Source of the DNA: Entophlyctis helioformis
Taxonomy: Eukaryota > Chytridiomycota > Chytridiomycetes > Chytridiales > Chytriomycetaceae
Reading direction: 5' to 3'
NCBI GenBank assembly: GCA_025526915.1
Contig: JAHLKH010000280.1
Coordinates: 1-25,013 of the forward strand
Length of the DNA stretch: 25,013 nucleotides
Part shown: piece after piece, positions 9,234 to 25,013 of the stretch
How positions within the stretch are numbered: the first letter of the stretch is position 1
Layout: every line of letters starts with the position of its first letter
Position numbers and translations under genes: made by a program
Notes under the pieces: model-generated
Database searches by the model: none
Seen by the model: only the letters and a program-made list of their open reading frames with translations
Told to the model about the DNA's origin: nothing

Positions 9234-10616
9234 ATGATCGCTCTCGCTCTGACGCTAGCGCTCGCCATTGCGGCTCCTGCCCATGCCCGCTTCGGCCAGC
9301 AGAACCCGTCTGCACAGGGCCAGGTGCAGAATGCTGTAGGCGGCACGCTCGCTGGCCAGGTGCCGTCTGCGCTTCTCGGAGGAGCCGACCCGTGCCTCAA
9401 GCTATCGCTCGCCGACAAAATCGCTGCAGCCAAACCGGGCGACGCAGCCGCCCTCGATGCCGCCCGTGCCGTGGTCCACACGGAAGCCAACTTCAATCCC
9501 TTCACGCCAGGTGCGCTGCCCAAGTTCTGTGGCGACGCGGCGCTGCCCAAGACGCCCGAGCTGCGCGGCATCCTCGCGCTCGTGTCCGATCAGGACTTGC
9601 CGACCAAGTTTGGCGCTGGCGGCGGTCTCTCGGCTGAGGCGATCAACAAGATTGCGGCCGACAGTCTCAAGAGCCCGATCGCCAACAATGCAGGCAAGTC
9701 GGTCGCGCAGCTGTTCGCCGACCAAGGCTTCAAGGACTTTGTTGGTGCCGACAAGCTCAAGGTCGGCAATGCCGGTGGTGGTGGTGGTGGTGGCGGCGGC
9801 GGCGGCGGCGGTGATGCTGCTGCTGCTCCCCCTCCAACCGCAGCCGGCGGTGGTGGTGGTGATGCCAAAACGGTCACGATCGTCACGACTCGCCTTGCCG
9901 AACCGACGGAATGCGCGGCCCTTGACCTTGCGGACTCTGGTGATAACAATGATAACGATAACAACGGCGACGACGACAACGGCGACGACGGCGACGATGA
10001 TACGACGACCGTCACGGTCGTTGTCAAGGCTGCTGCCACGGACTGTGCCAAGGCGGGGCTGGACCAAATCTTGAATTCAAAGGCCAATGGCGCGGCGGAT
10101 TCCCAGGTCGCCAACGGCGGTGGTGGTGGTGGCAATGAGGGAAAGGGCAATGACGATGGCAAGGGCAAGGGCAACGGCGGTGGTGGCGAGGGCAAGGGCA
10201 AGGGCAACGGAAACGGCAATGACAAGATCGCCAACGGCGGTGGTGGTGGTGGTGGTGGTGGTGGTGAGGGCAAGGGCAAGGGTAGCGGTGGTGGCATGAA
10301 GGGCAACGGTGCAAACGCGAATAATGCCGGAGGTGGCGGCGGTGGCAACAACAATGCTGGAAAAGGCAGAGGAAACGGTGGTGGTGGTGGTGGCAACAGG
10401 GGCAACGGGGGCAACAACAACAACGACAACGCCGCAAAGAATGCCGACAAACAGGCCGAGAAGAAGGAGAAGAAGGAGAAGAAAGAGAAGAAGAACAACG
10501 CTGCTAACATGCAGAGCGGTGGTGGTGGTGGCGGCGGAGCTGACTCTGGCCTCGGATCGGGAGTCGTTGATAAGCTCAAGGCACTTCTCAACCAGATGCT
10601 TCTTGTGCTGGGCTGA
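9234..10616 (+). CDS. Secreted Gly/Asn/Lys-rich protein, single exon
   Basis: 460 residues, no intron needed. The N-terminus MIALALTLALAIAAPAHA is a textbook signal peptide with an AHA-type cleavage site. Residues about 20-180 form a non-repetitive, Ala-rich, probably helical domain (PCLKLSLADKIAAA, NFNPFTPGALPKFCGDAAL, VAQLFADQGFKDFV) that I cannot assign. From about residue 181 the protein is low-complexity: long Gly runs, an Asp/Asn-rich acidic stretch (about 9940-10000), two TxxTVTxVV-like valine-rich strands, then repeated GKGKGNGGGG-type basic blocks and a Lys/Glu-rich stretch (10455-10500). The end (VVDKLKALLNQMLLVLG) is amphipathic. Two Cys occur in the folded part and two around the valine strands. 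The design suits a cell-wall or extracellular-matrix protein; that is inference. Codon use matches neighbouring host genes. Confidence 0.82.
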   Translation: MIALALTLALAIAAPAHARFGQQNPSAQGQVQNAVGGTLAGQVPSALLGGADPCLKLSLADKIAAAKPGDAAALDAARAVVHTEANFNPFTPGALPKFCGDAALPKTPELRGILALVSDQDLPTKFGAGGGLSAEAINKIAADSLKSPIANNAGKSVAQLFADQGFKDFVGADKLKVGNAGGGGGGGGGGGGGDAAAAPPPTAAGGGGGDAKTVTIVTTRLAEPTECAALDLADSGDNNDNDNNGDDDNGDDGDDDTTTVTVVVKAAATDCAKAGLDQILNSKANGAADSQVANGGGGGGNEGKGNDDGKGKGNGGGGEGKGKGNGNGNDKIANGGGGGGGGGGEGKGKGSGGGMKGNGANANNAGGGGGGNNNAGKGRGNGGGGGGNRGNGGNNNNDNAAKNADKQAEKKEKKEKKEKKNNAANMQSGGGGGGGADSGLGSGVVDKLKALLNQMLLVLG

Positions 10617-10843
10617 TCGCGCTTTGGCGGCCCTTCTCTCTCTCACACCATTCATCCTCGACACCAAGAAAACAGTCCAATGAACCATCTGATGTCTGGA
10701 AGTGTGCTGTATTCCAAGATCTCACGTTGCCACCGGCCATTGCATATGCTCGTTGGCGGCACTCACACAGGGTCCCCATCGTTCGCGGTCGCGTCGAGCG
10801 GAGTTTGTCCAGACAACCACAAAGCGAGCAAGTGGCTGCGACG

Positions 10844-12295
10844 ATGCAGAAGCAGCGACAGACGACAGGCAAGGCAGACGCAACAAGAACAACCAGCGAC
10901 GAGCTTGTGCGCAGTCTGCAGAGCCAGCTGCAGAGCACAGCCGAGCAGCTGGTTGCCCTTGGCCGCACCGACATTGTGCGGGCAGTGTTCGAGCAGGTCG
11001 TTGGAGAGAGTGGCAACCAAGCCGTCGAGCCAGGGCAGCCAGTTGTGCCTCGCTATGTGGTGCCGCCAGCCACCGGCGACCTTGCGTTCGGCAGCAGCCA
11101 CTGGGACGGCAAGCCTGCCGAGATCCACGCCTTGATCCTCAAGCACGCCAGCCCGCTCACCCGCTTCCTTAACGGACTGCTCAGCGACACGGACACACTC
11201 GACGAAGCGACCAAGCTGCAGCTGTGGATCGAAGCGTTCAAGATGGACTGGCAGGGCGATCTCGCTCTGCTGCCTGATGCTGAGCTGACGGCCGACAACG
11301 GACTGCTCCTCGCACACTCTCGCTCCATGTACGACCGTCTGTGCAAGCGCTTTCCTCAGTACACCGAGACTTCATACACGACCCAAGACGGACGCTTCAA
11401 AGACACCCAATACCAGTTCGAGTTCAAACACGTCGATAAATACCGGCTGCTTCTCATTCCCATGCGGCAGGGCTGGTTCGATCTGATCGCCTTGCCGAAG
11501 GCGATCGCACTCGCTGACCTCGCCATCCGCTTTGGATGTCTCAATCTGCTCAAGCATCTCGACGACAAGTACAAGCCGCCTAATCGCTGGATGGCCGAGC
11601 AAGATCCGACAAGCTCGTACTGGCAACTAGCCGTTGATCTAGCAGCGAGCCATGGACACCTCGATGTTGTGCAGTACCTGTTTGAAACGGGTGTGACGGG
11701 ATGCACGACTGCTGCCATGGACGAGGCGGCTGGCAACGGCCACTTGCATGCCGTCATCTGGCTCCACGAGAACAGGACGGAAGGATGCACGACGGATGCG
11801 ATGGATCATGCGGCTGGAAACAACCATCTGCACGTTGTCAAGTGGCTGCATGCCAACAGGACGGAAGGATGCACCAAGTGGGCGATCCTATTTGCTGCGG
11901 GCCGCGGGCATCTGCCTGTTGTGCAGTGGCTCCACGAGACCCGCGGTGAGGTGTTTACGTCCCGCGCAGTGGATGCCGCCATTAACTCGGGTCACCTGGA
12001 CATTGTCAAGTACATGCATTCCAAGGGCGGCCGTGCATCAGAAAGGGCTGTCGACTCTGCAGTCAGAGCAGGCAATATCGAGATGCTTCAGCACTTGATG
12101 GATTGCGAATACGCGGTTCGACTGGGAGCACTCAACCGCGTCAAGACTGCCGAAGTCGCCGATATCCTGCTTGACAGCCTCACACTGGACCATGCACGAG
12201 CGCTGCTCGCAGAAGCCGACCACGAAAATGCCACCATGGTCACCCTCTGGCGGATCGAGTCGGCCATCAAGAAACTGCAAATTTCAACCGAGTGA
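10844..12295 (+). CDS. Ankyrin-repeat protein
   Basis: A single open frame; the ATG at 10844 (MQKQRQTTGKADATR) gives 483 residues. An upstream in-frame ATG at 10727 would add 39 residues of atypical sequence and is less likely. Residues about 1-60 look helical/coiled (SDELVRSLQSQLQSTAEQL). The C-terminal half has degenerate ankyrin repeats of the kind common in chytrids, oomycetes and amoebae, with the core AA..GHL.VV.WLHENR. Clear units start near 11640, 11700, 11780, 11864 and 11950; the central ones have a 28-residue (84-bp) period, with DNA nearly identical across the junction AACAGGACGGAAGGATGCAC. This shows recent duplication. A protein-binding scaffold role is likely; no enzymatic domain is seen. 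Such proteins usually form large dispersed families. Confidence 0.87.
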   Translation: MQKQRQTTGKADATRTTSDELVRSLQSQLQSTAEQLVALGRTDIVRAVFEQVVGESGNQAVEPGQPVVPRYVVPPATGDLAFGSSHWDGKPAEIHALILKHASPLTRFLNGLLSDTDTLDEATKLQLWIEAFKMDWQGDLALLPDAELTADNGLLLAHSRSMYDRLCKRFPQYTETSYTTQDGRFKDTQYQFEFKHVDKYRLLLIPMRQGWFDLIALPKAIALADLAIRFGCLNLLKHLDDKYKPPNRWMAEQDPTSSYWQLAVDLAASHGHLDVVQYLFETGVTGCTTAAMDEAAGNGHLHAVIWLHENRTEGCTTDAMDHAAGNNHLHVVKWLHANRTEGCTKWAILFAAGRGHLPVVQWLHETRGEVFTSRAVDAAINSGHLDIVKYMHSKGGRASERAVDSAVRAGNIEMLQHLMDCEYAVRLGALNRVKTAEVADILLDSLTLDHARALLAEADHENATMVTLWRIESAIKKLQISTE

Positions 12296-12310
12296 TGTGT
12301 GAATGGCCCA

Positions 12311-12541
12311 GACTCGCAGTTCGAATGAAGACGTGATTGCCGCCACGACTTGCACCGCGTCTGCCAATGCTACATGTGTCTCTGCGAGAATGACCGCATC
12401 GTCTGCAAACATCAGTCCACGGATGCCATGACCGTCAGCCATGGCTGGGATGCTGATCATGAGGATGCCATCGAGGTTGTCGTTGAGGAACAGGTTGAAC
12501 AAGAGGTCAGACAGCGGGGAGCCTTGCACAGAAGGTACCAA
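12311..12541 (-). pseudogene. Non-LTR retrotransposon reverse transcriptase fragment
   Basis: The minus-strand frame contains VQGSPLSDLLFNLFLND and, about 100 bp further, GLMFADDAVILAE. These are the conserved QGSPLSP.LFN.. and (Y/F)ADD blocks of LINE-type reverse transcriptases, in the right order and spacing. Nothing of the N-terminal RT, endonuclease or C-terminal part is present. The fragment stops within about 80 bp of the tRNA-Asp gene and almost touches the stop of the ankyrin gene. It is a dead relic. Confidence 0.82.
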
Positions 12542-12608
12542 CAAATGCAGAACTGGCAAAAGAATACAGTATCGACATATGTCTGCCCATGTGGTGCGGC
12601 AAAACGGC

Positions 12609-12613
12609 AAAAA
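12609..12613 (-). terminator. Pol III terminator (T5) of tRNA-Asp
   Basis: Five T on the minus strand, four bases after the last base of the tRNA, followed shortly by a T4 run. This is the standard RNA polymerase III stop signal. Confidence 0.85.
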
Positions 12614-12617
12614 GTGC

Positions 12618-12688
12618 TCTTCAGCGGGGAATCGAACCCCGGTCTTCCGCGTGACAGGCGGAGATACTAGCCACTATACTACTGAAGA
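12618..12688 (-). tRNA. tRNA-Asp (anticodon GTC)
   Basis: The 71-nt minus-strand sequence folds as a cloverleaf: acceptor stem TCTTCAG/CTGAAGA, D arm GTATAGTGGCTAGTAT (A box), anticodon stem TCCGC/GCGGA with loop CTGTCAC (anticodon GTC), and T arm with B box GGTTCGATTCC. No intron is present. It closely resembles eukaryotic tRNA-Asp. CCA is not encoded, as usual for nuclear tRNA genes. A T5 terminator follows. Confidence 0.97.
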
Positions 12689-13003
12689 CCCCTTCACATA
12701 CAAAAAAGTTGCTTTGACAATATGACCATTGAGACATACCAGAGATTTTGTGCACTGCCACGTTTGTCAGCCACGTCACAAGACAATCTAATCCCACAAC
12801 TCACATCGTTGACTAACATTTAAAGGATAAAAAGGACGTCGCTATCTTCTGTATATCGAGGGCCGAAGAGACTGGATTATCACAAACAATTCAATGACGA
12901 CGTCAAAGTGAAATGATTGAAAACATCCTCCAGTCTCGGCATTCGCCTTCACTTTTTTAGATCTCCTTTGGACTCTCTGTATGGCTGACTGGCCGTTTAT
13001 CTT
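12689..13003. other. AT-richer intergenic region upstream of tRNA-Asp
   Basis: This 315-bp stretch lies between the 5' end of the tRNA gene and the stop codon of the SERHL-like hydrolase. It is clearly lower in GC than its surroundings and has A/T runs (ACATTTAAAGGATAAAAAGG near 12820). It should contain the hydrolase's 3'UTR. No gene or conserved motif is recognised. Confidence 0.5.
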
Positions 13004-14160
13004 TTACAGCTTGGACGGCTCTGGCAGCACGATCCGTGAGTGCGGCAGCGTCCCGCTGTTTGCTTTGTTCCAAAAGCCTGCAATCAGATGGGCAATGACA
13101 GTCGCAGACGCGGTTTCCATGTGCAGGTGGTGGCTGTAGATGCCCTGCGTGCGATGCTGATGCAGATGTCCTCGTAACGCGGCTTGGATCTCTGCCGGAG
13201 CAAACGACTGTCGCATGGTGTGGTCGGCCATGATGTTGAGCACTGGGCATTCAATGCGACCGAGAACGTCCAGGATGAATCCTTTGGTTGTTTTGAACGG
13301 GTTGGTTGGCGATGGGATGCGCGAGTCGGACGACCACACGTATCCCACAATCCTACCACTGCCGTCTGGTGCAGTGGCTGGCTTGACGCCGCGCGCAGCC
13401 ATGAGACGAGCCAAGGGCAGGCTGAGCGGATACTTGCCCGCCGATCTGGCGACTGCTGCCTCCTCGACTGTTGCAAACACACGCTTGGTGCTTGCTGCAG
13501 GGTCTCGCTTGACAAAGTCTGCCCGGGCATGGATGGCCTGAACGATGGCATCCGTGTGCTCGGCTGGCTCGTAGTAGATCATAGCGATGGTGTCAATGGC
13601 AACGACATGCTTGATGCGCTCGGGATAGAGGCCAGCCAAGTACACTGCAATGAAGCCGCCCATCGAGTGGCCCAGGATCGCAAACTCCTTCCATCCTGCA
13701 CACATCGCCTGCCTGTCAGTCCAGCAGAACAGAGACAGCACACGGCCACGCTGCTCACCAAGAGCGTTGACAACAGCGAGAGCGTCCTCAATGTCGAACA
13801 GCTTGGCATACGGTGCCTCCAGACTTCGGTGGTCGGACTGGCCATGACCCGCATAGTCCATGGCAACCATGTCGAAGCGGATGCTTGGATACTTGGCCAC
13901 AAGTATCGGCACCAGTACCTCCCACGTTGCGCAGTTGTCGTACCACTGTCGGTGGAGTGAGTGAGTGAGTGTGAGTGAGTGACCGCAGCCAGCCAGGTTG
14001 TGTCGCAGAGCCGCACGCCATGCAGAGCGAGCAGCGGGAGGCCATCGGCGTATCCCCATCGCTTGGCGGCAATGCGCAGGCCAGAGTGCGACCGGAACTC
14101 GAGCTCTTCGCCACGATAGTCCATCGATGCTGCAAGTCTGTGGCTGTTGGGCAAACGCAT
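13004..14160 (-). CDS. SERHL-like serine hydrolase (alpha/beta fold) with peroxisomal PTS1
   Basis: Three exons, 14017-14160, 13759-13945 and 13004-13695, with introns 13946-14016 and 13696-13758, give 340 residues. An alternative start at 14124 (MDYRGEELEF) would shorten the protein by 12. Motifs in order: FRSHSGLRIAAKRWG, LLALHGWYDNCATWEVLVPI across intron 1, VAMDYAGHGQSDHRS, NALGWKEFAILGHSMGG across intron 2 (nucleophile Ser), acid region LNIMADHTMRQSF, and catalytic His in YSHHLHMETA. The HGW.DN and MD..GHG..SDH signatures match the serine hydrolase-like (SERHL) branch. The protein ends in Ser-Lys-Leu (13007-13015), the canonical peroxisome-import tripeptide, which agrees with the peroxisomal location reported for this family in animals. 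The substrate is unknown. The 63-nt second intron has no stop and is divisible by three, so naive gene calling would retain it. Confidence 0.88.
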
Positions 14161-14294
14161 CTGGCGGCTGGTGCACGGTCGCGTTGTGGCACCACGAACA
14201 GCATCGTGCCACCATGAACAAGACCGTGCACAACACACACTGGCCACGGCTCTGCATCTGCTGCATGCAACGGCTTCATTCCCAGTCAGGCAGC

Positions 14295-16323
14295 CTACTG
14301 CTTGGCCACAAACTGAAGCGGTGTGTCTGACACGCTCACGCTCATGAGTCCATCTGCTCCACGCTTGAACACAAGTGCGATCTTGGGCGACACATCAAAC
14401 ACCATGCTGTGCGCCTTGCTCTTGCGTGCCTTGCCATCCTTGCGTGCGGTGCGGATGGCTGCCACTGGCGCGGCCATCGTCACTCCAGGAAGCGTGACAA
14501 GCAGTCCAGCATCGCCGTTGGCATTGAGCGTCGCCTTGTCAGTGCCCATGGCAACAACGATGGGCTGCACAGGGTTGCTGGCCATGCGCTCTGCATTGGA
14601 AACCACAAACGTGCCGACGCAGTCGGCGATCGAAAACGGCTCGAGCACAGCCTTGTCCTTGCCATCATCTTGCTTAGTTCCAGAAGTCGGTCCAGGCCAT
14701 CCATATGACTTTGTGATGACCTCCGGAACGATTCTTGACACAGCCTTTATGACGTCCTGCGATGTCATGACCGACACGGACGCGCCGGTCTTCTTGACAC
14801 TCATGGTGTTGCACAGGTAGCCCTGATTAGAGCCGCCGTGCTGTTGATCACACGAGACACAGGGCATGCGGGCACTCGGTTGTCAGCCAGCGTGCATGCC
14901 TTGAGCATACCGCCAAACCGATCAGATAGGCTACTCACACCAAACGACTCCTTGTCCTGCCCCCAGCCAACGCCAAAGTTTCCTTTGTCGTCTCCAACAA
15001 AGTGCGGCTTGAGCATCTCCTGAGCGAGATCCTTGCGCAGAAAGCCGTCGTTGTCGCCACGCACACTGGCATACATGGCTGCATGCACCTTGTTCAGATC
15101 GGTGGGCGTGGTCCAGCAACCGGCAGCCGCAGCCTCGGGATACAGATGGTAGCCGCCAGGGACAGGGATGCCGTCACCGGTGAGATGGCCAGCCACAAAG
15201 TCGCCGTTGTTGGGAGCTGTGTCCATGGCGAGGTGGAAGGACGTGTTGAGGAGACCGAGAGGCTGGATGAGGTGCTCGTCCATGATGTGCGCAAACGGCT
15301 TGCCGGTGACCTGCTCTAGCACATGCTGGACGATCGTGGTGCCGCCCTGCACAGAGCATCGTGGCAATGGCCGAACAAGCCAAGGCAAGGTGCATGTCAG
15401 CCATCGAGCAGCGAGCGAAGAGTGTGGCAGCGACAGCGACAGACACTCACGCCCGAGTAGCGAGACGCGAGACCAGGCAGCAGCTTGATCTCGACGCGGT
15501 CCGAGTTGCCTGTGCCGTTGAGCACGTCGACCGTGCTGGCAGGCATCGCAAGCGTGCCGTTGCGCACGGCCTTGCGGTTGTATCCGCCAAAGCCGTGCAC
15601 GTTGGTGCCGGCCGCGTGGGCAAGCAGCTGGCGCAGCGTGGTGGGTGTGGCTGGCGCCATGGACTCTGGCAGACCAGACTGCAGACGCCAGCCGTCGGCG
15701 CTGCCGTCCTTGCACAGATACGAGTCGATGTCTGCATCGAGATCGAGCAGTCCCTGCTGCACAAGCCGCATCACCACCACAGCCGTCAGCGGCTTGGAGA
15801 TGGACGCCGCCTGGAACACCGTGGCGGGCGAGACGGGAGCATCGATGAGGCCAATGTCTGCATCGCTGGCATCCGCATCGTCGATGGCCTTCTTGCCGGT
15901 CGATCGAAGCCACTCTTCCCAGCCGGCCATGCCGTCCTCGTCCTGCTTTTCGTCGGGCTCGATGTCGTCGTTGCCGTCGGTCTTGGCAGCGGCATCGTCG
16001 GTCTTGTCAGCGGCATCGTCGGTCTTGGAGGCAGCAGCAGTAGCAGCAGTAGCAGCAGCCTCGTCTCTGGCCTTGACAGGCTCGATGGCAGCACCGTTGC
16101 GGCGAGTGCCGTACGCCTTGGCCCAAGCAGGCACAGCACCTTCCCGCGAGACAGCAACGGTCAGCGCAGCACAGCCCTTGGACAGCAGCGCACGGGCAAC
16201 AAAGGCGTCGTTGGACTCGGCGGCAAGACGGTCGGCGTCCTTGAAGCCAGCGTAGTCGAGGATGGCCTGCTCCACAGCACGGATCGCAAGGGTGTCTGCC
16301 TCGGTGAGCGTCTCGACGGTCAT
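14295..16323 (-). CDS. Beta-lactamase-family serine hydrolase (class C / LACTB-like)
   Basis: Three exons, 15451-16323, 14939-15346 and 14295-14840, with introns 15347-15450 and 14841-14938 (both GTGAGT donors), give 608 residues in frame. The SxxK motif is in QAASISKPLTAVVVMRLVQQ, the Tyr motif in SRYSGGGTTIVQ (rebuilt across intron 1), and the third motif as GHGGSNQGY (rebuilt across intron 2), as in penicillin-binding-protein-like hydrolases of fungi. Between the N-terminal helix region and the SxxK motif lies a strongly acidic Asp/Ala/Lys linker (KTDD repeats, about 15950-16080), which is not typical of the family. The last about 130 residues form a separate beta-rich tail (VFDVSPKIALVFKRG..) like the C-terminal domain in fungal members. 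No signal peptide is seen. The role is probably an esterase or peptidase on an unknown small substrate rather than antibiotic resistance. Confidence 0.88.
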
Positions 16324-16581
16324 GTCCGTTTGTGCACTGTGAGCAGAGGTGCACAAGCGGTGTGGCAATGGTTTTGTTGGGGCACATGACGTGGCATACG
16401 TGGCACAGCCTCGTTGGGCCATTCCCAGTCGACACCACAAGAAGCCGACAGTGACGCAGTTCGCACGCACGCACGCACTCGGTCCCACAACTGGAGGCCG
16501 CAGATCCTGCTGGCGTGTCAAGTGCCTGGGGCTGGCGTCGCGGCTTCGAGGGGTTGGGTGTTGGCGTCTGGCAGCCACCAT

Positions 16582-16628
16582 GCCGCTGGTCTGCATTGCG
16601 GCCGGGTGCTGGCACGCGCTTGGAGCTG
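16582..16628. repeat. 47-bp direct repeat, copy 1
   Basis: GCCGCTGGTCTGCATTGCGG begins this copy; it matches copy 2 at 16720-16766 with two mismatches over 47 bp. The copies are 138 bp apart (start to start), separated by AT-richer sequence. Confidence 0.92.
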
Positions 16629-16719
16629 TATATTTCGATGAGTTTTACTTTACGATTGAAGAGTTTTTGACATTGAGCGTTGCTGTTGTGCCTGTGTCCT
16701 CGATGAGCTCCATCAGACA

Positions 16720-16766
16720 GCCGCTGGTCTGCATTGCGGCCGGGTGCTAGCACGCGCTTGGAGTTG
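16720..16766. repeat. 47-bp direct repeat, copy 2
   Basis: Same sequence as 16582-16628 apart from G to A and C to T changes. The first change makes GTGCTAGCAC, a perfect 10-bp palindrome (16744-16753), which copy 1 has only imperfectly. Confidence 0.92.
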
Positions 16767-16825
16767 CCGCCGTCCGATGCTCAGCTTCTCCCTTCACTGC
16801 GAGGGGTGGGCAATAGGGCGAGGGA

Positions 16826-16846
16826 TTGCCGGCAAACCGCCGGCAA
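16826..16846. other. Perfect 8-bp inverted repeat (hairpin) downstream of Fanzor
   Basis: TTGCCGGC - AAACC - GCCGGCAA forms a stem of eight pairs, six of them G-C, with a five-base loop. It is about 230 bp past the Fanzor stop codon on the transcribed side. It could be part of a structured guide RNA, a transposon-end structure or chance. Confidence 0.8.
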
Positions 16847-17072
16847 ATGGCCCGACATTCAAACAATTACCAAGCGTTTTGGAAGTGGATTCGACCCGAG
16901 AGGCGACGGATGCAAGCCAGCACATCACACGATGGAAGGTTCGAGTCAGCAACGAGCATGCGACGACAGGTGGGCGAGGCACATCCAACGAGATGCTCAC
17001 CTTCTATTGAAGTGACCCGTTAGGTCGATCGGGAGGTGCCCCGATTCAAAGTGTTGGTGGTGGTGCTGGAAG

Positions 17073-17350
17073 TCACATGGAGTGACGTGCTGTGTCTGTG
17101 GAGGATACTGCTGCGATGCTGTTGACAGGCTGACTGGCTGGCGTGTGCGTCAAATAGAGCGGCCGTTGTCCATGGAACAGATGCCCCAGTGCGACCATTC
17201 CGATGTTGGTGGCTCCAAGCACATCGCGGTGGTAGACGGTCTTGCATGGTATGCACTCGTAGCGTCGCAGGTTGGTGCGGTTCTTGTCTGGGATCCGTTG
17301 CTTGCACTGCGGGCACATCTGGCTGGTCAGGTTCTCGTTGCAGCGGTAGA

Positions 17351-17385
<35 letters not shown>

Positions 17386-20300
17386 TCAGTTGGTGCACAG
17401 ATGGATGGATGGATCGACAGCATGGCATCAGACGCACATAGGCATATCCAGACGACCGCAGATGCCTGATGAGAAAGTCCTCAAACACAGCGTGCCGGCC
17501 ACCTTGACCTGTAAAGTCGATGCCAAATGCCCACACAACGGGAATGTTGTCCTCTGTCGACTTTGTTCGGTCGACAGGGAGGCCTTGAGATGCAGCAGAT
17601 GCGCGCTCTCCAGTGGTCGAGCCTGCCAGCTTCATGATGCCCTCAAGAGCGTTTCCGCGATCAGACGTGCTGTTGCTGCGCTTGGTGAACCGCTTGGCCT
17701 TGACCTTCTGTGGAATGCCATGCCATGCCATGCCATCCAGTGCAATCAGCAGGCGATCAAGCAGTATGGCGGCCATGGCAATGGGCATCCAGAACCAGAG
17801 AAAACGTACCCGTGCATTCAGGAATGGCGAGCAGTATGCATGGCAGCGCAGATCCCAAAAGGCTCTCTCGCCTGCTGAGACGCCTGGATCGGCATGCTTT
17901 GCTGTCTTGAAGGCAATCGCCTCGTGGACGTCGGCTGCCTTGGCATATTGATTGTTGAGCCTGGCACAGGAGGCAGGCACTGTGAGTTGATCTGGTCAAG
18001 AGTGCACGTGGCAGAGTCATTGCATGCATACCACTGCTGAAGGTCACGCTCAGCTCGTGCCATGCCAGAGGAGAGCACGTAGTTGGACTCCATCGTGTAT
18101 GTCTCGTCCTCGACATTGACCAGCATGCTGGACGCGCCAAACAGGTACCGCTTGCCCCAATCAATGCCAACAACGCGAACAAAGTCCTTGTCGGCAAGCA
18201 GCTTGTTGGCATCAGCAACATCGGGCAGTCGCTGGGATGCATTAAAGTTGCGCTGAGCCTGCCATGCCATGGCATGAGTGAGGAATGTGCAATGCATGTG
18301 CACCAATGCGCGAGTTTAGCATGCAAGTGACTTACAGGATTGGTTGCTTTTGGCTTGGCGGCTGACGGGTTGGCTGGATTGGCGGCTGTGGATGGCATGT
18401 CAGTTGGTGTGGACAACAAGTGCCCGTCTGGATTGGCACAGCAACTCACATGTGCCATTCAGGTAATCGGGCTCAATAAATTGACCATTCAAGGCATTAA
18501 GGATACCAACAGCAGCATCAGCAAGACTGGGCTGCTGGGCTGGAGACGCCGCATTGGGACCTGCAGAGCAAGGCAGTGGTCAGAATCAATGCGTGCACCA
18601 AAGCATCCAAGCATGGCACATACTGCGAGGCGACTCTGGACGGTCTGCGCGGCAGTCCAGTGCCAGCTGATAGACCATGTATCCATCCGTCATGATGCTG
18701 CCTTGTCTGATCACTTGCTTTGAAGCCACCAGAGGCTGAGAATCAACCGCGGCCTCGTCACCCTCAGCCTGCGTTGGACGGCGTCGATTCTTGGGGCAGA
18801 GGCCGGGCAGGAGGATGTCGAGGATGGCCAGCTCCTTGCTATTGCTGAAGGCCGTTTGGATGTCGTTGTTAGTCGACTTGAGAGTCAACTTGGCATCTTT
18901 GCAGTTTTGGATAAAAGTGGAGTGTCAGCATCAAATAGCATTGACGTGGCATAGACACATGCAACTTACCAACTGCAGCCAGGAGCTCCTTTCGCAATGC
19001 TTGGAGGACAGGATTGTGCTCATTGCCAATGCGATCGCTTTGCAGCCCCACCACCGCCCAAAAGAGCGTGGCCTCAGTGACGAGGATGAACGGGTCACGG
19101 CTTGCTGGCTGCAGGCATAGCTTCATCACTGAAGTGCCAGCGAGCTTGAGGAGTTGGTAGAACCGTCCAATGTCCAATGTTGACATGCTGCGCACAATTG
19201 CCTGAATTGGATTCAGCTCTTGTGGGATCTTGATGGCGTCCCCATCCTGTGCGGCTGGTGGTGTGGCCTGCGTGGTGTCAACGGCCCGTATCCACGGTCG
19301 TTGGGTTCTTATGGCGTTTCGGCATTTATTGGAATCTTAACTTAACGATTGAAATCTACTACTACCCGCCCTCGTTCTGGAACTTTCATTGTGGCACCTG
19401 TGGCGACAGGGGCAGTAGTCTCGTCCCTTTGCCTCTTGGATGTGCTGCCATCGGTGGGCAGCAGAAGCTGTGACGCGGTCCGCTTGAGAGTTGGGGCGGG
19501 AGGAGCAACATCCTGAGTGGCGTCCATGGCGTCGTCCATGGCGTCGTCCTCAATGGCCGGCAATGGGGCGTCTTGAGCAGTGTCCTGAGCGGCGTCCTGA
19601 ACGGCGTCTTGAGCAGCGGCATGCCTGGCAACCTTGGTGGTCTTGAGTGGCTTGAATATGGCATCGACCCACGCTGCAATCTGCTCAGAAGTCGCAGCAG
19701 GCATTGCTCTCTGGGCTGCGACCAATGCCAGCTTTGACCGGTTCTCGATGAAGTGCTTGGCGAGTGTGACGCTCACCTCCCTTGCCAGGTTTTCGAAGAT
19801 CTGCTTGGTCGCATGTGCGCACAAGGTGTTGACAAGCCGATAAGGCACCACTGCCTGCTGTGTGTCGGCCTGCTGTGCATCAGCTGGGTGCAAGCTCGAC
19901 CACCACATGTCTGGATGCCGCCCACGAGTCTGCTGCTTCTTGGCCGGTCGACGCACGCCTGCCTTCATCTTGGTCATCCGTGCGGTGGTCCGCAGCGTGC
20001 CTGCCTGCTGCGCATTGCCAGTGTCCATGTCAGCCTTGATCGTGTTGGCTGGTGGTGCAGCTTGGTCGGTCATGCTGCCAGGTGTCCAGCTGCGATGGAT
20101 CAGCAGCTGGACAACTGTGACAAGCCACGCATTGAGCGTGAGCATGATAGACATCGGCTTGACCATCTGCTCGCCCGTTAGGACAAACGAGAGGTGCCGC
20201 AGGATGCAGGCCGCGGATGTCTGGCCACCCGACTCACTGGCGACAAGCATCGCAAGCAGCTCATTGGGCGTCAGCACTGCTGGTGCTGCTGGTGCTGGTG

Positions 20301-20436
20301 GCTGGCCGTTGGGCAACTTGCGCGTCTTGACCTTCTCGAACATGACGCGCTTGAGTCTTGTTCCCTTGACCAGTCGCACGCGATGGCCAAAGCGAGGGTG
20401 CTTGCTGCTGCCATTATACTGACTCGCGCCGTACAT
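17073..20436 (-). CDS. Fanzor (eukaryotic TnpB-like RNA-guided DNA endonuclease), eight exons, apparently intact
   Basis: Exons: 19366-20436, 18970-19267, 18624-18896, 18450-18560, 18336-18385, 18032-18258, 17438-17960 and 17073-17351. All seven introns (63-98 nt) are GT-AG and phases match throughout, giving 943 residues with no internal stop. RuvC-I is VRVVGIDWGKRYLFGAS (Asp about 634). A helical stretch follows (FWDLRCHAYCSPFLNARVRF.., about 712-750), then VVWAFGIDFTG. The last exon has NENLTSQMCPQC (Glu about 857 in E-x-x-T-S, then CxxC), the second zinc pair CIPC (884/887) and RuvC-III YHRDVLGATNI (Asp about 894). This order is diagnostic of TnpB/Fanzor; the size and introns fit Fanzor1. 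The first exon (357 residues) has basic clusters (KKQQTRGRHP, STSKRQRDE) that could be nuclear signals, a helical block (REVSVTLAKHFIENRSK) seen in the Fanzor N-terminal region, and a Gln-Asp-Ala repeat. Start chosen at 20436 (MYGASQYNG); in-frame ATGs further upstream lie in repeated sequence. Known members cut DNA guided by an RNA from their 3' flank. Confidence 0.9.
17353..17384. repeat. (TG)16 microsatellite forming a Fanzor 3' splice site
   Basis: On the coding strand this is (CA)16 and its final CAG is the acceptor of the last Fanzor intron (17352-17437). Changes in repeat number leave the AG in place but alter the branch-site distance. Confidence 0.9.
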
Positions 20437-20463
20437 GGTCTGTAACGGATGCTCGGTCGCGGT

Positions 20464-20487
20464 CACGTGATCCACGTGACCCACGTG
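20464..20487. promoter_or_regulatory. Three CACGTG (E-box) sites at 9-bp spacing
   Basis: CACGTG occurs at 20464-20469, 20473-20478 and 20482-20487, 28 to 51 bp upstream of the Fanzor start codon and about 300 bp upstream of gag. CACGTG is the classical site of bHLH factors such as Cbf1/Pho4 in fungi. Nearly one-turn spacing puts all three on one DNA face. It may serve Fanzor, the retrotransposon, or both. Confidence 0.65.
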
Positions 20488-20541
20488 ACCGGACAGACAT
20501 TGCCCGGCCGCGTCCCCCACTCTGGTTGCCCCCGTTCTTGC

Positions 20542-20592
20542 AGTCGTCTGCCCGCCCTTCCTCGCGTGCATACTCACTGCCCCTGCAACCAG
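20542..20592. repeat. 51-bp direct repeat, copy 1
   Basis: Begins AGTCGTCTGCCCGCCCTTCC and is identical over 51 bp to 20615-20665. The period is 73 bp. It lies between the divergent Fanzor and gag genes, possibly within the retrotransposon's 5' LTR or leader. Confidence 0.95.
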
Positions 20593-20614
20593 GTCCGTGC
20601 TTATGTCTCAATGA

Positions 20615-20665
20615 AGTCGTCTGCCCGCCCTTCCTCGCGTGCATACTCACTGCCCCTGCAACCAG
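20615..20665. repeat. 51-bp direct repeat, copy 2
   Basis: Perfect second copy of 20542-20592 separated by 22 bp of unrelated sequence. The identity implies a recent duplication or selection, for example tandem protein-binding sites in an LTR. Confidence 0.95.
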
Positions 20666-20787
20666 CCGGCAAGTCCGCCTGGAGGCCCAGTGTTACAGCA
20701 AGAACGCCCTCTCGACGCCGTCGGCCGCCGTTCCCCGCCGCCGTCGATCGATTTTTCCGTCGTTTTTCCGTTTTTTTTTTCCTTTGG

Positions 20788-23391
20788 ATGGCCGTCGAGC
20801 ATTCGCCCAGGGCCTCGGCTCACTCAGCCGCCGCCCCCTCGGGCACCGACCAGGACCTCCTCGGCGAGGCCTCGTTCGATACGGCCCCCTCGTTCATCGA
20901 TGCCACCCCCTTAAGGTTCCAGCGCCGCCTCGACCCTGCGGGTACGTCGTCTGTCTTGATGGCCGACTCTGCTCTGGGCGTGTCTTTTGGCGCCTCAGCG
21001 GCGCGCCGCCAATCCTCGGCCGACCTGTTGGGCCGCCACGATGCGGGTTCCGGTCGGCACCAAGAGGCGTTCCTCTCCAGCACGCCGGCCGCCCAGCCGG
21101 GCGCCGCAAGCCGCCCTGAGCAGCCTGGCACCACAGTCGATGACTACATGATTGCGGAGCTGGCACGCCTTGGCACGGTGACATTGGACACCAGCCGCGC
21201 ACTCAGGGCGACCACATCATCTGCGGCCGCTGCCCACGCAGCCCTCAACGATCTGCGGCTTCAGCTGCAGTCGGACCGCGACATGGCCGCCAGGCAGGCC
21301 GAGGCCTACTCCAATGCCATCCAGCTCCACCACCAACGCATGGTGGCACTCTTTGACTCCGTCGAGGCCAACTCAGAGGCCATACGGGGCCTGCAGAAGA
21401 GCGTCGCCAACACGTCGGAATCCGTGATTGCACTGGAGCAGGTCTTCTCGGATGCCGTCGCCAAGGCCACCAAAACGGCAAACGCTGCGTTGGCGCAGGC
21501 CTCAGCCACGGCGACCCTGCTTGCGGAGCATCCGGTCCAGGCGCTTGGGTCCTCGGTGGACTCGCGTCCGACCCTCGCGTCTGGATCCTCGGTGGATGCC
21601 CGCAGCCCTGCCAAGCTGTTTGCAGACAACCTGGGCAGCAAGCTTGTGCCATTCCAGGGCTTTGTGATGGTTGAGGGTTCGATGGACGTCGATTGGACGG
21701 CCACCCACGCGGCTTTCAAGCCGTTCGCCCTCGCCATCGAGATGGCTTATGGCAACACCTGCGAGTCGCTGTCATGCACCTCGATTCCCATGCCGCGGAT
21801 CTTTGGGCAGCTCCTGAATGCCTTCCAGGGAGCCGCGCTCCAGGAGGTCACCACCTGGTACATCGACAACAAGGCCGACGCCTCGTCGTTCACATTCGAC
21901 ACGTTCCTCGAGCACCTCCGGTCGACTTACACGCACCAGGACTCGGCCCGGATCAGCGCCAAGGCCAAGCTTGCCTCCGACTTCCCGCCGCTGTCGTGCC
22001 ATGGCTGGGCCCCCCAGGACTGGGTACCCCGCGCGGAGGCGCTGTTCAAGGTTGCCGGCCACTCGGAGCAGCTCAAGATCGACTTCATCCTGGGCCGCCT
22101 CAAGGCGACGCCCTCGGAAACGTTCTCCTCGTACGCGGCCATCCGGGATTACCTCATGGCCCTGCACACGCGGAAGGCCAACCACAAGCAGTCAACCGCG
22201 CTGGCCACTGCTGAGGCAGCCGCCGCCAAGGCCCTCGAGCCCAAGTCGAAGCCCAGCCTGAGCAAGACGGCTGCCACGCCGCCGCGTTCTTGGAGCTCCT
22301 CATCGCCCAAGGCTGCCACCCCTGCGCCCTCTGGCAACAACAGCGCGTCTGAGACGCGTAAGGCTGCCTCGCCCGCTGCGACAGCCGACCATGCCAGCCG
22401 ATCGCCTAGCCAGCGCCCGCCCCACTCTAAGGTCGGGCGCATCGCGGCAAAGGCCAAGGCACCCGGGTACGTTCGCTCGCCCCCTCTGGCTCCTCCTGCT
22501 CCTGCGGCCAAGCACGCTTCGGCGGCTAAGCCTGCAGCCGTGCGTAAGCCCAATGCTGACACCGAACCTCCATCGGTCCCTGCCCGTGACGACGGCGCAC
22601 CAGCAATGGCTCCGGCTCGCGGTCGCTCGAAACCGTCTCGTCGTTCTCAGACGACGGGACCCAGTACAGCGACGCAGATGAAGAAGAGTAGTCCAGTTGT
22701 GGCTGATGCGAATAAAAGGGTGCCCTCTGTGGCCCCTGATCACCCTGTTTGTCCTGTGTTGCCGCCGTCGCGACTGAAGGAGGGGCACCTGGCTCCTGTG
22801 AAGCCCATCACAGAGAACCGGTGCACCTTCCCTGTCTTCTTAGACAATCGCAGCGCCAGCGTCCTGGTGGACACTGGCAGCAGCGCGAATCTAGTGGCTC
22901 GCCATTGGTTGGATGCCAATGGCCTGCTCGCCGCTGCCCGGCCGTTCACCCGGCAGGCGGTGACTCTCGAGTTTGCCAACGGCAACTTGCAGAGACTAGA
23001 TTCGGAGGTCTACCTCACGCTCGCGGACAGATCAAATGCTGTCAGCCAGGTGCGGTTCCTTGTCTATGACGGCGTGGATGATGTCATCCTGGGCATGCCG
23101 TGGCTGCGCACTACCGCAAAGGCGTTGTTCAACTTCCGTCGCGGTGTTTTCCGCTTCTCGACCGAGTCGCGCCCCGATGTGCACCACATCTGGCAGCACG
23201 GACGCTCCGCCGTCTGCTGCCCCCACCACCGGCCGCACTCTGACATCGTGGTTACCATGTCGGACATCCTCGCCCATCCGACGAGTACGCGGAGCTGGTC
23301 TATGTGGATGACCTGCCTGAGGACCGTGAGGCAGCTGCTGATGCGCGCCTTCGCGTCGCGGCTGCAAACGGCCTCACCCCGGACGAGCTGA
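20788..23391 (+). CDS. Gag-protease polyprotein of the Ty3/gypsy element
   Basis: The ATG at 20788 ([15 protein letters not shown]) follows a T-rich leader; the open frame extends further upstream but through non-coding-looking sequence. The N-terminal region is disordered. An Ala-rich coiled coil (about 21190-21530, [19 protein letters not shown]) is followed by a retrotransposon-gag capsid domain (about 21640-22170, [29 protein letters not shown]). A basic Ala/Pro/Ser/Lys-rich stretch (22200-22740) replaces the usual nucleocapsid; no CCHC zinc knuckle is seen. The aspartic protease follows: active site [11 protein letters not shown] (Asp codon 22869-22871), flap region and the C-terminal VILGMPWLR. 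After about 23260 the frame turns to non-homologous sequence up to the stop at 23391, while coding continues in another frame. That could be a frameshift site between protease and RT, or damage. Confidence 0.87.
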
Positions 23392-25013
23392 AGGAGAAGT
23401 ACCCCTACCTTCCAGTCTGCCCGGACGAGGAGACGCAGAAGGCATTCATCGAGTACTACGAGGTCTGCTGCCCGCCGCAAGGCCGTGCGCACGACTCGGA
23501 GTTCGAGATCGCATCCCTTTCATTAAGGATGCGCAGCTGCCGCCGCGTCGTGGCCTCAAGAGACTGAACCAGGATGCATCCGTAGCGCTCAAGAAGCAGC
23601 TGGACGAGTGGTACACCAAAGGTTACATCCGCCGCTCGTCATCGCCTTTGGGCGCCGGCACGCTCTTTGTCCGCAAGAAGGATGGTTCGCTGCGGTTGGT
23701 CATCGACTACCGCGGCTTGAACAACATCTCGGTGAAGTTCCACAGTGCGATCCCGGAGATTGAGACCCTCCGTGATAACTTGGCAAACAAACCCTTCCGC
23801 TCGATGCTTGACATCCGCGAGGGCTTCCTTAACATCCGTGTTAAGGCGGAGGACCAGTGGAAAACTGCGTTCTCCACCCAGTTTGGTCACTTTGAGTTCA
23901 CGGTCATGCCTTTTGGGCTGACCAATGCTCCGGCTGTGTTTACACAGGCCATCCAGTCGACGCTCAATGAGCTGCTGGGCACGTGCGTCTCGGTGTACAT
24001 GGATGACATCTACATCTACAGCGCGACGTACAAGGAGCATATCAACACCTACGCACTGTTCTCAAGCTGCTACTGGAGGCTCAATTGTACATTAAGCCGT
24101 CCAAGTGCATGATCCTGCAGCAGGACATTGAGTTCTGTGGTCACGTGCTCTCGCCCACTGGTTATTCCATTGCGCCAAAGCACTTGCAGGAGATGGCCGC
24201 AGCGCCACACATCTCAAACACGCCACTCTGGCAACTTGGCTAGGTAAGCTTGTGTGGTTAAAGTCATTCATTGGTGGGCCGAACCCTGCAAAGGCGTACG
24301 CCACCATGTGTCTGCCACTATACAAGCTACTAGCCAAGAATGCCAAGTGGGAGTGGGGCCCTGCTCAAAAGCAGGCTGTGGAAGACCTGCGACAGGCAGT
24401 GTTGAAGGCACCGAGCTGCGGTTCTTTGACCCGGCTCTGGAAACGCATGTCTACACTGATGCCAGCAACTACGTCATTGCCGGCTACCTGTCGCAGATCC
24501 ACCCAGATGGCGAGAAGCTGGTGGCCTGCTGGTCACGTAAGCTTAGCCCAGCCGAGATGAACTATCCAACCCACGAACGCGAGTTGCTCGCCATCGTGGA
24601 GTTCTTCTCGCGTTTCCGTCATCTGCTGTCCAGTGTGCGCTCTGTCACGCACACTGACCACAAGGCGCTGGTCTGGTTGGCCACGCAGCCCCACCTGTCG
24701 GATCGGCAGGCTCGATGGGTCCTGTCTCTGCAGGAGTTTGATACATCCATCGAGTACGTGCCTGGCGAGCTCAACTCGCTGGCCGATCTGCTGTCCCGCG
24801 ATCCCTCAAAGGCCCCTCTCTGCACAAACTGTCGCTCGCCTGTCCCGATCCGTGCTGCCAATCTGCGCACTGACTCTGACTGGGCGAAAGACGTGCGTGC
24901 GGCGTTGCCGGCCGACCCATTCGCCTCCAGACTGCCTGGCTGGAAGGCTGACCCGTCGTCAGCCACGCCGGCCGACCGCAAGGTCGTAGTGCACATGGAG
25001 TGCTTGGATGGTG
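23280..25013 (+). pseudogene. Pol (RT and RNase H) of the Ty3/gypsy element, frameshifted
   Basis: A linker ([20 protein letters not shown]..) starts near 23280. RT spans about 23507-24240, with [27 protein letters not shown] (catalytic Asp), [15 protein letters not shown] and YMDDIYIYS (23996 onward). RNase H spans about 24415-24810, with VYTDASNYVIAGYLSQ, SRKLSPAEMNYPTHERELLA, THTDHKAL and LADLLSRDP. Frame changes are seen near 23506, 24047, 24200-24225 and 24410, besides the protease/linker change near 23275. The continuation of the RT frame also meets a stop at about 24241-24243. Protein similarity is continuous across these points, so they look like single-base indels rather than introns. 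The frame is then open to the window end, before integrase. Confidence 0.86.

Follow-up and report, generated by a model that had tools for sequence, protein, structure and literature searches.

In the genome of the chytrid Entophlyctis helioformis, the minus-strand stretch 16801..20440 of one 25,013-nucleotide (nt) contig (GenBank JAHLKH010000280.1, forward strand; contig C280 of the 29.6-Mb genome G000; hereafter the window) is very likely the 3' part of a single dead copy of a transposable element of about 10 kb that is present at high copy number and encodes a large, probably RNA-guided protein of the Fanzor/TnpB type. From sequence, we infer that this protein, in which RuvC is split by a four-cysteine (C4) zinc ribbon, probably cuts DNA, that its guide RNA would be made from the 3' noncoding end of the element, and that cutting would help the element persist.

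A multicopy element with a Fanzor/TnpB-type gene

Searching the genome with window positions 17073-20436 returned at least 87 matches (best 40 of 315 candidate places scored), and 20 same-genome loci were compared with the window by blastn, 17 of which end within 5 bp of position 16800. Two extended copies, A (C38) and B (C1), share their left and right ends, 10.0 and 9.9 kb apart, respectively, and match in between, with a diverged stretch inside. With probes for the left and right ends (best 40 of 85 and best 40 of 208 candidate places scored), the two ends lie, judged by eye, 9.7 to 10.3 kb apart in eight cases (C1, C2, C13, C38, C95, C103, C178, and C331). In addition, at least 150 loci of the genome, the window's included, score above the cut-off of the PF07282 profile, a lower bound since the best 150 of 205 candidates were scored. 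The termini of the element are rich in G and show no more than a short, imperfect inverted repeat. Copy A is flanked by an 8-bp repeat resembling a target site duplication (TSD), and none is seen at B and L027. The gene is thus carried by a repeated eukaryotic element with common ends, which is a Fanzor1-type trait.

The subfamilies of the element differ unevenly along their length. Between A and L028, the upstream coding part differs by approximately 20 to 45% per 200-column window, compared with 2 to 9% over A 12247-13440, the RuvC end; between A and B, the upstream part is patchwise either 64 to 80% or >85% identical, and the RuvC end is 93 to 98% identical. This mosaic divergence, with the RuvC end near-identical and the upstream parts far apart, suggests exchange between subfamilies.

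Identity as a TnpB/Fanzor-type protein is supported at the motif and profile level. The last exon matches PF07282 (Cas12f1-like TNB) with an E value of 6.5e-10 and 39.5 bits, against a curated cut-off of 26.3, and the motif set on which the original prediction was built (GIDWG, E-x-x-TS, C4 ribbon, and HRD) is present. TnpB/Fanzor proteins are defined by the motif D-X(125,275)-[TS]-[TS]-X-X-[C4 zinc finger]-X(5,50)-RD (Bao and Jurka 2013; PMC3627910). All of its elements are found within the C-terminal 308 residues of the window copy, at D33, T225, S226, C229/C232/C249/C252, and R258-D259, with 191 residues between D and T and 5 between the last Cys and RD. Across 20 aligned rows (the window and 19 other copies, with L026 left out), the catalytic D, E, and D are kept in 20, 18, and 20 rows, respectively, and the four zinc-ribbon cysteines in all 20. 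The fingerprint of Fanzors is described in PMC10711439 as a RuvC-I motif that is near-exclusively DPG, together with a shifted catalytic Glu approximately six residues before the zinc finger. The shifted Glu is present here, with six residues between E222 and C229, and it is this residue that 18 of the 20 rows retain.

Ten of the 20 rows, among them the window, are stop free from 19273 on. Three of the other copies, L009, L011, and L024, stay open over approximately 900 residues starting at the MYGASQ position, a count that may be low, with the B-type rows framed by alignment only. Adding about 135 codons further upstream in the same exon to the 904 residues open in L009 gives at least approximately 1,040 residues for the Fanzor gene, and a rough estimate for the whole Fanzor-like protein is about 1,400 residues. 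At the codon level, the gene appears to be constrained, but not strongly (median dN/dS of 0.60 over 45 pairs of 10 rows picked for open frames).

A second, putative gene lies upstream of the Fanzor gene. P0003, an open reading frame (ORF) of 349 amino acids (aa) at 6839-8091 in L029/L009 (A), carries the acidic motifs EAD...DSD...ND, is 55 to 65% identical between subfamilies, and was matched at a minimum of 218 genome stretches (116 of 403 candidates scored). One region of P0003 shows a faint likeness to XPG_I_2 (13.9 bits against a cut-off of 24.2; E, 0.038) and to 5_3_exonuc_N (E, 0.22). Its B-type counterpart has no Pfam match at E 0.5, no FEN chain was found for P0003 in PDB, and a genome-wide run of the XPG_I_2 model identified three places, all of them outside the listed P0003 stretches. 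FEN/XPG identity is therefore a weak lead. Among published full texts, of which most subscription papers lie outside the coverage, we found none joining Fanzor and XPG. A single fusion of P0003 with the Fanzor protein was considered and rejected: the frames are conserved from P0003 through to the window's part, but P0003 in its annotated form terminates at RQVLA, the residues at which the B and C alignments also stop, so that two adjacent genes appear to fit better. Finally, the left 2 kb of the element (L029 3863-5934 in A, and the matching stretch of B) is 93% alike between subfamilies and contains conserved minus-strand ORFs, of which none of the three scanned has a Pfam match; their frame is ambiguous.

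The 3' noncoding end and the weighing of the assignment

Known omega-RNAs sit between the stop codon and the right end of their elements (PMC10432273). In the corresponding region of the E. helioformis copies, the stems H1 and H2 are near-invariant, and the third, H3, is swapped wholesale from copy to copy. Ten H3 variants each fold as a hairpin, with z scores of -1.8 to -4.5 relative to shuffles that kept base, but not dinucleotide, content. H3 thus keeps its pairing even as its sequence changes, a behavior that would suit an omega-RNA scaffold. In four loci, Rfam returned nothing at gathering scores, and in the window it gave one match below the gathering score.

The stems are followed by the donor-like AAGGTRAG in 19 of 19 aligned rows. 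Between this motif and the right end (179 to 197 nt), zero or one AG occurs in each of the 19 sequences whose end was recognised (18 copies and L041), where base content would predict 5.6 to 7.6. The three copies with no recognised end, L013, L028, and L042, contain 1, 7, and 4 AG in 203 nt, respectively, and L019 is without a match to the search string. Beyond the right end, the first AG of the flank starts within 6 nt at 14 of 16 distinct insertion sites (mean, 4.3 nt), a closeness that 20,000 random draws from these flanks never equaled. A preference at insertion, a filter, or a device for splicing could each explain this proximity. The AG-poor tract was rejected as proof of an intron, with AG-free runs of 185 to 287 nt occurring elsewhere in the window, and is suggestive at most. 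Still, the AAGGTRAG donor, the AG-poor run of approximately 190 nt ending in a pyrimidine tract, and the insertions upstream of a host AG could together be read as the front of an intron that lacks an acceptor. The spliceosome would then join the scaffold or Fanzor transcript directly to the host sequence and in this way supply the guide, in an element that places a Fanzor of about 1,400 residues beside a possibly FEN-like nuclease; we regard this as improbable.

Several observations weigh against a mobile, RNA-guided element of Fanzor type. The RuvC-I motif reads DWG in all seven rows of A1 rather than the DPG of Fanzors. Profile searches, proposed with the original prediction as a check, were divided, since PF07282 scores above its cut-off and the NCBIfam TnpB models NF040570, NF038281, and NF038280, which align with the ribbon end only, reach 25.6, 25.2, and 11.3 bits against cut-offs of 100, 425, and 350. 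In PDB, phmmer gave no relative at E 1, and the family profile scores best against a Rho exchange factor that is unrelated (E, 0.33); three chains named RNA-guided nuclease or LaTranC appear at E 0.40 to 0.73. RNAalifold on the MAFFT alignment of the 3' end yields a covariation term of -0.2, with both sides changed in 1 of 61 pairs, a near absence of covariation that arises because the H3 variants do not align. Other pairs of element ends are 2.4 kb (C89), 5.9 kb (C418), or 16 to 19 kb (C3, C14, C22, and C312) apart. The scanned ORFs yielded no recognisable transposase, and no systematic search was run for one. Because the shifted Glu is found and DPG is not, the protein is best filed as TnpB/Fanzor-type, probably an aberrant Fanzor rather than a proven Fanzor1 or Fanzor2. 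We infer a RuvC fold for it.

The DWG motif, combined with a Glu seven positions before the first Cys, also bears on a different origin, in which a TnpB-type protein was captured independently of the known Fanzors and founded a separate eukaryotic TnpB lineage. A clade with an alternative Glu and a D-hydrophobic-G motif has been described (PMC10711439), which would fit such a history, but loss of the Pro from a Fanzor DPG would be a small change, and searches reaching close relatives only found no prokaryotic or viral relative of the family. We consider independent capture possible but doubtful. More widely, protein searches (some scoring approximately 8,000 candidates) and viral and prokaryotic contigs, at limited sensitivity, gave no relative outside E. 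helioformis; the database proteins found were three, all BC831DRAFT proteins of this species. Likewise, none of the works found on Fanzor, TnpB, and chytrids, or on Entophlyctis helioformis (the latter assessed on their titles and opening lines of the abstract), points to the element family.

Alternatively, the RuvC-like protein could have lost its nuclease function and now serve the element as a DNA-binding or regulatory factor. The catalytic E is replaced by K in two rows (L020 and L025), and dN/dS lies only moderately below 1; yet with E kept in every other row, and both D residues and the four Cys in all of them, such a loss seems quite unlikely.

Structure of the window copy

Comparison with the same-genome copies supports seven introns in total, several of which vary in length inside while GT...AG stays in place across the 20 aligned rows (Table 1). 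The introns of the original prediction, which came without coordinates, were rebuilt from its residue numbers (375 nt before RuvC-I and 157 nt after); six supported introns and a first intron of 98 nt are taken as its model because they reproduce those numbers. The six hold at the same GT...AG place in all 20 rows (18 for the first of them). The 98-nt intron does not, since it starts inside an insertion, and a true intron of 102 nt was read as exon, so that neither the eight exons nor the 943 residues stand.

Table 1. Features of the element copy and its surroundings, in window coordinates.
Feature	Position	Strand	Basis or remark
3' part of the ~10-kb Fanzor-bearing transposable element	16801..20440	-	ends on the right at 16801; interrupted at 20440 by the LTR retroelement
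3' noncoding end, candidate omega-RNA region	16801..17073	-	
Stem H1	17045-17028	-	
Stem H2	17026-17014	-	
Stem H3, hypervariable	17012-17001	-	
Donor-like AAGGTGAGC	17003-16995	-	AG-poor tract from there to the right end
Last exon: E-x-x-TS, C4 zinc ribbon, RuvC-III HRD	17074..17351	-	PF07282 match
Intron with CA repeat, 86 nt	17352..17437	-	20/20 rows, 66-99 nt
Exon with WAFGIDFTGQGG	17438..17707	-	
Intron, 102 nt	17708..17809	-	GT-AG in 20/20 rows, 92-103 nt; P0001 reads NARKVKAKRF across
Exon	17810..17960	-	
Intron, 71 nt	17961..18031	-	GT-AG in 20/20 rows
Exon with RuvC-I GIDWG	18032..18258	-	catalytic Asp at 18162-18160
Intron, 77 nt	18259..18335	-	20/20 rows; junction also in P0001 (BC831DRAFT_236294)
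Exon	18336..18385	-	
Intron, 64 nt	18386..18449	-	GT-AG in 20/20 rows
Exon	18450..18560	-	
Intron, 63 nt	18561..18623	-	GT-AG in 20/20 rows
Exon	18624..18896	-	
Intron GTAAGT...AAAG, 73 nt	18897..18969	-	GT-AG in 18/20 rows
3' part of the long exon, beyond the insertion	18970..19275	-	in L009, L011, and L024, where the insertion is absent, the frame runs on from the 5' part
119-bp insertion	19276..19394	-	115-bp unit 19276-19390 and one copy of the 4-bp CCAC duplication
5' part of the same long exon, MYGASQYNG...VATG	19395..20436	-	comparison with other copies; ATG at 20436 is an internal codon
GIDWG, NENLTS, CPQC/CIPC, and HRD motifs		-	in the intron-bearing ORF set
LTR retrotransposon	20441..25013	+	LTR probably ~20441-20697; aspartyl protease, reverse transcriptase, and RNase H matches in separate ORFs

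The 119-bp insertion lies inside an exon, is not a multiple of three in length, and is absent from 18 of 18 other rows covering the site, with row L027 deleted there. Its 115-bp sequence has 18 places in the genome. Of 10 such loci that were cut out, the window's included, four have 4-bp duplications on both sides and five are followed by a common internal sequence. The simplest reading is a solo long terminal repeat (LTR) with a 4-bp duplication. We also considered an introner and rejected it; an LTR fits better because the ends are not GT/AG and 5 of the 10 copies share the internal sequence. Two copies of the repeat lie 10.3 kb apart on C57, and the repeat is seemingly the very short LTR of an element of about 10 kb there (C57:48789-59253), found also as solo copies.

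At its upstream edge, the window copy is cut. Eighteen of the 20 loci extend past the equivalent of 20440; of the other two, L026 runs into the end of its contig and L027 has a deletion inside the element. Upstream of the putative start codon, its frame stays open in L009 for a further 153 codons. In the B and C subfamilies, stops in this frame fall at query residues 10 and 15, and the protein is then kept up to and past the Met, at 68 to 74% and 47 to 53% identity, respectively, apart from single stops in L020 and in an additional L028 alignment that overlaps the first. By this comparison, the exon in relatives runs about 135 codons upstream of the ATG at 20436. The window sequence diverges four bases before that ATG, at the start of the LTR of a retrotransposon (cut 20440/20441) that runs off the window end. 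A related retroelement, 59 to 69% identical, sits inside the L026 copy with the same termini against the element sequence.

We thus read the window copy as a 5'-truncated remnant carrying a second insertion, and because the N-terminal exons are cut off it is most likely non-functional. The catalytic residues are indeed undamaged, as had been argued in favor of an active copy free of lesions, but the front is missing and an exon is hit. An intact gene that starts at 20436, has eight exons, splices out the inserted repeat as an intron, and makes a working nuclease is accordingly very improbable: unspliced, the frame from this ATG stops at 19344, and the only 98-nt GT-AG pair found that restores it (19365-19268) has its donor within the repeat that 18 other rows lack, and says little because 30 GT-AG pairs of 40 to 200 nt restore the frame at this site, none singled out. 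Intact motifs and spliceable open frames did not, in this case, equal an intact gene.

Just beyond the right end of the element, the window contains a 47-bp direct repeat (16582-16628 and 16720-16766; 96% identical, 138 bp apart). Further on are host-like ORFs at 15397-16641, 13004-14272, and 10574-12292, with beta-lactamase-family, alpha/beta hydrolase, and ankyrin-repeat matches, respectively.

Comparison with known Fanzor elements

Fanzors are usually 600 to 700 residues in size (PMC11423790). If the open copies are active, E. helioformis would harbor a Fanzor lineage well above this size, without DPG, at no fewer than 150 loci in a single chytrid genome of 29.6 Mb. With many copies that differ in flanks and stems, it becomes testable how the RNA scaffold of a Fanzor changes in sequence yet fits its protein, and the same copies let one ask how elements spread with no transposase yet recognised.

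The closest parallel is with another chytrid, Spizellomyces punctatus, whose SPu-1/SpuFz1 (Fanzor1) is likewise encoded by a multicopy element and combines RuvC and a C4 ribbon with a 3' noncoding region before the right end. For SPu-1 copies, Ty3 insertions within them or close by have been reported (PMC10432273), comparable to the LTR retroelement in the window copy. In contrast, the SPu-1 element measures 2.1 kb, has 33-bp terminal inverted repeats, and encodes the 633-aa SPu-1-1p in a single ORF (PMC3627910), whereas the gene described here is multi-exon, carries DWG, codes for more than 1,000 aa, and belongs to an element of approximately 10 kb.

Introns in Fanzor genes are already known from CRe-2 and CRe-3 of Chlamydomonas reinhardtii, which have ten exons, supported by expressed sequence tags (PMC3627910). 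These genes are intron rich like the one in E. helioformis but differ in having Helitron ends. Variable 5' and constant 3' parts are described in the same source for MCi-2 of Mucor circinelloides, an unclassified group of Fanzor elements with 11 copies and TSDs of 11 to 12 bp; the E. helioformis subfamilies similarly differ upstream and share the RuvC end, but show a possible 8-bp TSD at one of the three copies with both ends seen. Finally, CMe-1A of Cyanidioschyzon merolae, of unknown class (PMC3627910), is alike in copy number, with approximately 150 copies, and differs in size, at about 3 kb compared with about 10 kb.

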